NCBI GenBank assembly: GCA_013153635.1
Contig: JAADDZ010000023.1
Span: forward strand, 1 to 26,723
Direction of reading: 5' to 3'
DNA from: Aquificota bacterium
Lineage (GTDB): Bacteria; Aquificota; Aquificia; Aquificales; Hydrogenothermaceae
Length of the DNA stretch: 26,723 bases
Shown here one piece after another: positions 1 through 1,982 of the stretch. Every line of letters begins with the position of its first letter. The stretch's first letter is position 1. Made by a program: the position numbers and the translations under genes. The notes under the pieces were generated by a model. It made no database searches, was not told the origin of the DNA, and saw only the letters and a list, made by a program, of their open reading frames with translations.

Positions 1-49
1 TTTTATTATTTTATTTTTTATTTATTTATTATATTAATAATAATAATAG
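1..49. other. AT-only duplex unwinding element with DnaA-trio run
   Basis: Bases 1-48 are exclusively A or T. Read 3' to 5' on the plus strand from base 49, the sequence is GAT, AAT, AAT, AAT, AAT (49 back to 35). This fits the DnaA-trio pattern 3'-[G/A]AT-5' known from Bacillus subtilis, where DnaA engages single-stranded DNA beside the anchoring DnaA box. A two-base CC spacer (50-51) separates the trios from the DnaA box at 52-60, whose orientation is the one expected for loading DnaA onto the trio strand. The element would be the melting site. Function is inferred from arrangement only. Confidence 0.75.
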
Positions 50-51
50 CC

Positions 52-60
52 TGTGGATAA
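52..60 (-). promoter_or_regulatory. DnaA box next to the trio element
   Basis: A perfect TTATCCACA on the minus strand (TGTGGATAA on plus). It stands alone, 46 bp before the next cluster, and directly abuts the CC spacer and the DnaA-trio run. By analogy with the basal unwinding system of other bacteria it would be the anchor box from which a DnaA filament extends over the AT-rich element. Confidence 0.8.
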
Positions 61-85
61 CTTAAAAATTTTGCAAATTTTCTAG

Positions 86-116
86 TTAAATCAAACACTT
101 AACCCTGTGGATAACT
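86..116 (+). repeat. 31-nt origin repeat, copy 1
   Basis: First of three copies of a unit in which a conserved AAATCAAA core and a TTAA stretch precede the DnaA box and a trailing CT. It differs from copy 2 at three of 31 positions. Only the DnaA box part has an obvious function. The conserved upstream half is unexplained. Confidence 0.75.
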
Positions 117-137
117 ATGTGGATAACTTGTGGATAA
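106..137 (-). promoter_or_regulatory. Cluster of three DnaA boxes
   Basis: Three perfect 9-mers at 106-114, 118-126 and 129-137, all in the same orientation, with starts 12 and 11 bp apart, about one helical turn. The first is the 3' part of a longer 31-nt repeat that recurs at 202 and 332. Confidence 0.85.
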
Positions 138-201
138 CTCAAATTTTGAAATTTTCTTTTAATTAGAACACTTATCTAGTTAGATAACACTAACATTTTA
201 A

Positions 202-232
202 TAAAATCAAATATTTAACCCTGTGGATAACT
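202..232 (+). repeat. 31-nt origin repeat, copy 2
   Basis: Second copy, ending in the DnaA box at 222-230 plus CT. It differs from copy 3 at only two of 31 positions, and the match to copy 3 extends six bases further upstream (TTTTAA at 196-201 and 326-331). Confidence 0.75.
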
Positions 233-290
233 CTGTGGATAACTGCCAGTTATCCACATACTATCCACAATTTTTTTGAGGTTATCCACA
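222..290. promoter_or_regulatory. Mixed-orientation DnaA box cluster with a 25-bp palindrome
   Basis: Two boxes read TGTGGATAA (222-230, 234-242). They are followed by inverted TTATCCACA at 250-258 and 282-290 and the near match CTATCCACA at 261-269. Boxes 234 and 250 lie in a palindrome with 12-base arms (234-245 and 247-258) around the single base 246. Start spacings of 12, 16, 11 and 21 bp are seen. This is the only place in the array where box orientation reverses. Confidence 0.85.
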
Positions 291-306
291 GGTTTTTCTT
301 TGGGTA

Positions 307-315
307 TGTGGATAA
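307..315 (-). promoter_or_regulatory. DnaA box
   Basis: A single perfect TGTGGATAA between the inverted boxes (250-290) and the pair next to pyrG (352-371). It is in the same orientation as most of the array. Its start is 45 bp before the next box. Confidence 0.8.
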
Positions 316-331
316 CTTTTTGATTTTTTAA

Positions 332-362
332 TAAAATCAAATACTTAATCCTGTGGATAACT
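332..362 (+). repeat. 31-nt origin repeat, copy 3
   Basis: Third copy, ending in the DnaA box at 352-360 plus CT. In each of the three copies the unit is followed by a second DnaA box starting 11-12 bp after the first. Confidence 0.75.
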
Positions 363-371
363 TGTGGATAA
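352..371 (-). promoter_or_regulatory. Pair of DnaA boxes beside the pyrG stop
   Basis: Two perfect 9-mers at 352-360 and 363-371, starts 11 bp apart. The second ends three bases before the pyrG stop codon (375-377, minus), so transcription of pyrG that does not stop at once would run into the origin array. Confidence 0.85.
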
Positions 372-374
372 CTT

Positions 375-1982
375 CTATTTTTTTTCTTTATGTTTTACAG
401 ATGCATCTACAAACGATACAAAAAGAGGGTGAGGGCTGAAAGGTTTTGATTTAAATTCTGGGTGAAACTGACATGCTACAAACCATGGGTGGAGTTCTTC
501 TGGGAGTTCTATAATTTCGGCTAATTTTTTAGCTTTGTATTCTCCAGATACAATTAAACCTTTTTCTTCCAGAATAGGTCTAAATTCTGGATTCATCTCA
601 TATCTATGTCTGTGTCTTTCATATATCTCTTCTTGTTTATAAATCTGATATGCTTTTGTGTTTGGTTTTAATGTACATTTGTAAGCTCCAAGTCTCATAG
701 TTCCACCTTTTTTATCTATACCCTTTTGGTCTGGCATAAGGTCTATTACTGGATACGGTGTTTCAGGGTCAAACTCTGTAGAGTTTGCTTCTTTTAAACC
801 TGCTACATTTCTCGCAAATTCTATAACAGCTACCTGCATTCCAAGACATATACCAAGGTAAGGTATGTTATTTTCTCTTGCATATTTTACTGTAAGGATT
901 TTTCCTTCTACTCCTCTTTCACCAAAACCTCCGGGGACTAAAATCCCATTTACTTCACCTAAGATTTGGTCTATATTTTCTTCGTCTATCTTATCTGCTT
1001 CTATCCATTTTATATTTACTTTTACTTTGTTAGGTATCTGTGCATGTATTAAAGCTTCATATATGCTTTTATAGGCGTCTTTTAGCTCTACATATTTTCC
1101 AACGATAGCTATAGATACTTCTTTCTTGAGTTTAGAAAGGACATTTACTATTTTTTCCCATTTAGATAGGTCAGGTTCTCTGTATTCTAATTTTAAGAGT
1201 TTAGATATTACTTTATCTAGTTTTTCCCTTTTTAGATATGTAGGAAGTTCATAAATGAATTCTAAATCTGGTGCAGAAAGGACTGCTTCTTCATTTACAT
1301 TAGTAAATAAGGCAAGTTTTCTCTTTATAGGTTTTGGAAGAGGTCTGTCAGCTCGACAAATCAAAATGTTTGGTTGGATTCCGATAGCTCTTAATTCTTT
1401 TACTGAATGCTGACTAGGTTTTGTTTTTAGTTCTCCTGCCGCTTTTATATAAGGAACGTACGTTAGGTGAATAAAGATAGCATTTTCTCTACCTAATTCT
1501 AATCCCATCTGTCTTATGGCTTCTAGGAAAGGTAGACTTTCTATATCTCCTACAGTTCCTCCTATCTCAATCAATGCTATGTCTGAGCCTTTTGCGGCTT
1601 TTTCTATACTTTTGATAATCTCGTTTGTAAAATGGGGAATAACTTGAACAGTAGCTCCTAAAAACTGACCTCTTCTTTCCTTTTCTAATAAGGAATGATA
1701 CAGTTTTCCTGAAGTTGTATTATTGTATTTTGTTAATGTAACATTGGTAAATCTTTCATAATGTCCAAGGTCTAAGTCCGTTTCTGCTCCGTCTTCTGTT
1801 ACGTAAACTTCTCCGTGCTGATATGGATTCATCGTTCCCGGGTCTATGTTTAGATATGGGTCTAGCTTCAAAAAGGTTATTTTATAACCCATAGATTCAA
1901 GTATAGACCCTATACTAGCAGAAGTTACACCTTTTCCTAAAGAAGATAAAACTCCTCCAGTGATAAAAACAAATTTTTTCAA
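375..1982 (-). CDS. pyrG: CTP synthase (glutamine hydrolysing)
   Basis: Makes CTP from UTP, ATP and glutamine, the last step of pyrimidine nucleotide synthesis; cytosolic. At 535 aa it is close to the usual length of about 540. The N-terminal synthase domain shows the ATP-binding stretch GVLSSLGKGVTSASIG (residues 10-25) and a conserved GGTVGDIES segment (141-149). The C-terminal class I glutamine amidotransferase domain has GGFGERG (351-357), nucleophile Cys379 in GICLGMQ, and the His507/Glu509 pair in FHPEF. The start is a TTG (1980-1982), supported by GAGG at 1990-1993 on the minus strand with a 7-base gap. The gene is transcribed toward the DnaA box array at 1-374 and is divergent from the small membrane protein gene at 2065. 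No clear terminator lies between it and the origin. Confidence 0.98.
   Translation of the reverse strand: MKKFVFITGGVLSSLGKGVTSASIGSILESMGYKITFLKLDPYLNIDPGTMNPYQHGEVYVTEDGAETDLDLGHYERFTNVTLTKYNNTTSGKLYHSLLEKERRGQFLGATVQVIPHFTNEIIKSIEKAAKGSDIALIEIGGTVGDIESLPFLEAIRQMGLELGRENAIFIHLTYVPYIKAAGELKTKPSQHSVKELRAIGIQPNILICRADRPLPKPIKRKLALFTNVNEEAVLSAPDLEFIYELPTYLKREKLDKVISKLLKLEYREPDLSKWEKIVNVLSKLKKEVSIAIVGKYVELKDAYKSIYEALIHAQIPNKVKVNIKWIEADKIDEENIDQILGEVNGILVPGGFGERGVEGKILTVKYARENNIPYLGICLGMQVAVIEFARNVAGLKEANSTEFDPETPYPVIDLMPDQKGIDKKGGTMRLGAYKCTLKPNTKAYQIYKQEEIYERHRHRYEMNPEFRPILEEKGLIVSGEYKAKKLAEIIELPEELHPWFVACQFHPEFKSKPFSPHPLFVSFVDASVKHKEKK

Follow-up and report, generated by a model that had tools for sequence, protein, structure and literature searches.

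A compact DnaA-box array beside pyrG is the predicted chromosomal replication origin of a member of the Hydrogenothermaceae

The first 371 bases of the window, by which we mean the whole stretch of 26,723 nucleotides analysed here (contig C2 of the source genome, G000, from base 1), are predicted with high confidence to form the chromosomal replication origin, oriC. An origin function had been proposed for this region in an earlier note, and it is now supported by a DnaA-trio module at one end of a dense array of DnaA boxes, by the family-wide occurrence of this array and of its spacing, by its presence as a single copy, and by a strand-corrected switch of compositional skew in relatives. The array represents no new type of system and, judged on its testable features, is a bacterial oriC; the parts of specialist interest are a conserved second motif and a shifting genomic address. 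For this deep-branching family of thermophiles, no mapped origin, experimental or detailed, was found in the literature searched on Aquificota and Persephonella, and DoriC may already list predictions for closed relatives.

The array (positions 52-371, 320 bp) holds 12 boxes, namely eleven exact DnaA boxes (TTATCCACA/TGTGGATAA) and one near match (Table 1). The count of the earlier note was thus exact on recount, and its description of an array devoid of genes beside a 48-bp A/T-only run was borne out as well, with no ORF inside the array and the pyrG ORF beginning just past the last box. Much of the array is made up of three direct repeats of 49 nt, and the inverted inner boxes sit between groups pointing the opposite way. 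The density is indeed far above chance, as had been claimed: the eleven boxes observed compare with 0.005 expected per 320 bp at the rate found in the rest of the genome, and with a mean of 0.004 (maximum 1) in 20,000 composition-preserving shuffles of positions 1-374. Altogether, the 1.69-Mb, 28-contig assembly contains 37 exact boxes, 11 in the array and 26 scattered, and since a reversed-pattern control gave 27 matches genome-wide, the boxes outside the array represent a chance-level background. An equally dense array elsewhere, coinciding with a GC-skew minimum or replication peak, had been named as an observation that would speak against the origin; a second box cluster was sought across all 28 contigs of the assembly and none was found.

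Table 1. Features of the predicted origin region, in window coordinates.
Feature	Position	Strand	Basis
A/T-only stretch, predicted DNA unwinding element (DUE), truncated at contig start	1..48		longest A/T run
DnaA-trios TAA-TAA-TAA-TAA-TAG + CC spacer	35..51	+	sequence; kept in relatives
DUE-proximal DnaA box (platform box)	52..60	-	exact match
Motif M copy 1, TCAAACACTTA, 4 bp before box 106	91..101	+	sequence
DnaA box	106..114	-	exact
DnaA box	118..126	-	exact
DnaA box	129..137	-	exact
Motif M copy 2, diverged, TCAAATATTTA, 4 bp before box 222	207..217	+	3 mismatches to consensus; placed like copies 1 and 3; within 49-nt direct repeat
DnaA box	222..230	-	exact
DnaA box	234..242	-	exact
DnaA box, inverted group	250..258	+	exact
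DnaA box, inverted group, CTATCCACA	261..269	+	1 mismatch
DnaA box, inverted group	282..290	+	exact
DnaA box	307..315	-	exact
Motif M copy 3, TCAAATACTTA, 4 bp before box 352	337..347	+	sequence
DnaA box	352..360	-	exact
DnaA box, ends 3 bp before pyrG ORF	363..371	-	exact
pyrG (CTP synthase), flanking gene outside origin	375..1982	-	PRK05380 E 7e-257, TIGR00337 E 1e-248

The A/T-only run at the outer end of the array is the longest of the window, the next longest being 30 bp. As contig C2 starts at window base 1, the A/T-rich side of the origin is truncated by the assembly; in relatives, the A/T-rich flank extends further outward. The basal unwinding system (BUS) is laid out as a DnaA box, a short G/C spacer and trios with a central A, mostly with GAT nearest the box, and it is recognised by three or more trios (NAN, consensus 3'-GAT-5') at most 16 bp from a DnaA box and in the right polarity (PMC8287927). 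The sequence of the Bacillus subtilis BUS is given in PMC10316083 and that of its Helicobacter pylori counterpart in PMC8235120. Outside the first box of the array, the + strand reads TAA-TAA-TAA-TAA-TAG-CC-TGTGGATAA, or outward 3'-GAT-AAT-AAT-AAT-AAT-5', so that five trios (GAT first, then four AAT) begin 2 bp from box 52-60, within the BUS distance and with the polarity seen in B. subtilis. The G/C spacer consists of CC only (GCC if the G of the first trio is counted) and is short in most relatives too; the usual spacer between box and trio is 4-5 bp (PMC8235120). The trio module beside the DUE-proximal box is kept in most relatives, and in the g7 genomes it comes with a near-box in tandem, like that of B. 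subtilis. In the source genome, the pattern AATAATAR-N1-6-TGTGGATA matches the array and nothing else, and most genomes of the family that carry an array showed the trio-box pattern there. BUS-like hits outside the family but within the order (G039, G043, G055, G058, G059), as well as at 992 kb in G009 and on contig C22 of G028, are isolated single boxes inside ORFs and were put down to chance.

The DnaA protein of the source genome (L034:1042-2367) exhibits domains I, III and IV and the DHTT motif. Single-strand binding by B. subtilis DnaA involves Asn187, Arg202, Lys222, Glu223 and Glu228 (PMC10721633), and equivalents of Arg202, Lys222, Glu223 and Glu228 are kept here. In B. subtilis, Asn187 is the residue that recognises the trio's middle adenine; at its position, all 13 DnaAs examined from the family have Ser and A. 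aeolicus has Gln. The Ser is one of the points that weigh against reading the array as the origin. An Asp stands at the Glu183 position throughout the sampled family, whose trios are mainly 3'-AAT-5', and it is possible that the Ser and Asp substitutions are co-adapted with AAT trios.

Comparison with related genomes, which the earlier note had suggested as a check, relied on a paired-box pattern (two boxes no more than 30 bp apart). It retrieved the array in 24 of 61 relatives, every one of them a member of one family, and the reversed-pattern control gave 0 matches everywhere. Each of these genomes has a single array place, except for an isolated box pair in G001. Box spacing is nearly constant across the family, although the intervening sequence and the neighbouring genes differ: the steps between boxes are 54-12-11-93-12-16-11-21-25-45-11 here and 54-11-11-92-12-16-22-21-21-14-11-55-11 in G024. 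The predicted origin cassette keeps its layout while its gene neighbourhood changes. A degenerate array with few exact boxes was also seen beside dxr at about 493.5 kb on contig C1 of G009 (L073, 6980-7144), the same place as the array of G028.

The location of the array bears on two other explanations. In the window, the 3' end of pyrG faces the array, and the pyrG-argS side is common to all three genomes of the genus (G000, G001 and G002). Among named genomes, the relatives of this PyrG assign the source genome to the Hydrogenothermaceae (Aquificota). Other genera carry the array beside a dxr-like and a thioredoxin-like gene, a folK-like gene or others, names that were read from translations. 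That the array adjoins pyrG might speak for a DnaA-regulated control region of pyrG or of a neighbouring gene, but the probability of this reading is close to nil, given that the array lies at the 3' end of pyrG and that different genes flank the same array in other genera. Similarly, iteron-like box arrays are known on plasmids and could point to the origin of an integrated plasmid or phage. This is extremely unlikely in view of the chromosomal housekeeping genes on the flanks (pyrG, argS, trxA and folD), of the presence of the array throughout the genus, and of G004, where the array resides on the closed 1.93-Mb replicon and is absent from the 54-kb contig.

Linkage of oriC to dnaA is common in bacteria without being defining. 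The earlier note had set the origin against the 3' end of pyrG and away from dnaA. The second part held, since dnaA of the source genome is located on contig C11 with no boxes upstream; the first did not extend to a general address, pyrG being the neighbour in this genus only. In none of the 13 genomes read were DnaA boxes found upstream of dnaA. Among closed relatives, dnaA and the array are about 0.86 Mb apart in G004 (868 kb vs 6.8 kb) and about 0.72 Mb apart in G024 (887 kb vs 1612 kb); in G006 the distance is only 47 kb. An origin at dnaA was considered and rejected, both for this lack of upstream boxes and because in G004 and G024 the skew slope then has the wrong sign; G009 is the only genome where dnaA fits the skew better than the array does. 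For setting base 1 of genomes of this family, the array is a better landmark than dnaA. On contig C16 of the source genome (L311, 684-2873), we also noticed a mobile-element-like segment with a tyrosine-recombinase-like ORF and an ORF for a DnaC/DnaA-like AAA+ ATPase.

Plain cumulative GC skew, another check put forward in the earlier note, is not usable in this family, as it follows gene orientation. It was therefore replaced by third-codon skew regressed on gene strand and side, using sampled stretches of the genomes; thus corrected, the skew agrees with the array on average and not in every genome. When the flanks (about 7 kb) of 19 arrays were pooled and compared with 2000 draws of 19 control segments, the third-codon skew switched sign at the array (GC 0.054, TA 0.052) and 0 of the 2000 draws reached either value, a test that is optimistic because flanks from related genomes depend in part on one another. 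In G001, of the same genus, the best single switch on contig C34 falls at the array (66-70 kb) for GC and TA alike. The closed 1.93-Mb chromosome of G004 presents GC -0.070 and TA -0.075 in the 40 kb to the left, GC +0.084 and TA +0.089 in the 40 kb to the right, and a coarse whole-chromosome scan puts its origin at 0 kb, against an array position of 6.75 kb; fitting the whole chromosome requires a terminus near 1.83 Mb, which is implausible. Within the window, genes to the right of the array show a leading-strand bias of 0.109 +- 0.036, the left flank being missing in the source genome. Overall the skew is weak: the array of G024 fits it about as well as other sites do, the skew of G015 is flat with no switch at the array, and G009 and G011 show skew contrary to the array as origin. 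In G009 the skew favours an origin near 140-180 kb. Between 80 and 200 kb to the left of the array on contig C2 of G004, the third-codon skew reverses again, and most of the remaining chromosome resembles one replichore; this second sign change suggests a later rearrangement or a strongly displaced terminus.

Dense boxes alone would also fit a DnaA-titration site. Such a site is datA of Escherichia coli, a cluster of boxes that titrates DnaA and controls initiation. Were the array of this kind, the real origin would lie elsewhere, as the contrary skew of G009 and G011 could also be taken to indicate. We consider this very unlikely in view of the A/T stretch and polarised trio at one end of the array and of the skew switch at the array; the genome also has no alternative box cluster that could serve as origin and nothing upstream of dnaA.

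If the array is the origin, as we predict, its boxes would be bound by domain IV of DnaA, and the inverted inner boxes at 250-290 would probably fold it into a compact complex. From box 52-60, ATP-DnaA would extend outward along one trio strand (TAG, then the TAA repeats), and capture of this strand would open the A/T stretch. Helicase loading would then establish two forks moving in opposite directions, one of them through pyrG into the window.

Known origins share several of these elements. The oriC of E. coli has the classical 9-mer box, a DUE at one end and oppositely oriented box groups, all shared with the array described here; it combines few strong and many weak boxes, whereas consensus boxes are numerous here. 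In Thermotoga maritima the boxes are longer and of different sequence, compared with the classical TTATCCACA of the array. Likeness to the T. maritima oriC lies in its being a thermophile origin whose DUE adjoins the DnaA-oligomerizing region (PMC10316083). The array resembles the BUS part of B. subtilis oriC in its box, its G/C spacer, its trios of like polarity and the A/T-rich stretch that follows them (PMC8287927, PMC10316083). Unlike that origin, it is neither bipartite around dnaA nor beside it, its later trios are 3'-AAT-5' instead of 3'-GAT-5', its spacer is CC and the corresponding DnaA has Ser for Asn187. In H. pylori, the DUE of oriC2 likewise consists of a G/C spacer, a trio and an A/T-rich part, and a box cluster adjoins it (PMC8235120). 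H. pylori differs in having two box clusters split by dnaA, whereas the present array is single and compact and has its inner group inverted.

Once the boxes were masked, the most enriched k-mers of the arrays besides the trio belonged to TCAATAACTTA, which we call motif M. The form TCAAHWACTTA was counted 25 times in one orientation and 3 times in the opposite one, where 0.06 would be expected per strand. The gap between the end of motif M and the next forward box measures 4 bp 24 times and 14 bp 10 times, two distances about one helical turn apart. Read as a box, motif M does not keep phase with the box spacing of 11 and 21 bp; as ATAACTT is common to motif M and to the extended box TGTGGATAACTT, a weak DnaA site is possible. 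Motif M (TCAANNACTTA), placed 4 or 14 bp before boxes, is probably a second recognition element, which DnaA would bind weakly or to which a different origin protein would bind. Its repetition may result partly from duplication of the 49-nt unit, yet the motif recurs in many genera. No published description of motif M was found in the literature searched, and it presumably differs by sequence from the I and tau sites of E. coli. We tentatively propose, at somewhat less than even chances, that Hydrogenothermaceae origins are cassettes of fixed geometry, in which the non-box element TCAATAACTTA would be bound by a second mode of DnaA or by an unknown origin protein and whose address changes between genera. 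With an exact candidate of 370 bp and homologues in about 24 genomes, origin function, trio opening by a Ser-bearing DnaA and the role of motif M are directly testable.

Two further observations concern this motif. G011 (genus g10; L074, 6394-7288) harbours an expanded origin with about 11 boxes over some 900 bp and at least seven perfect copies of TCAATAACTTA, where the local skew does not speak for an origin. Moreover, positions 164-176 of the window, in the central part of the array, form a box-free segment that is conserved at the matching place in relatives; it is TTTAGAACACTTA-like and followed by GTTA...AACT, and may be either another motif M copy or a site of its own.
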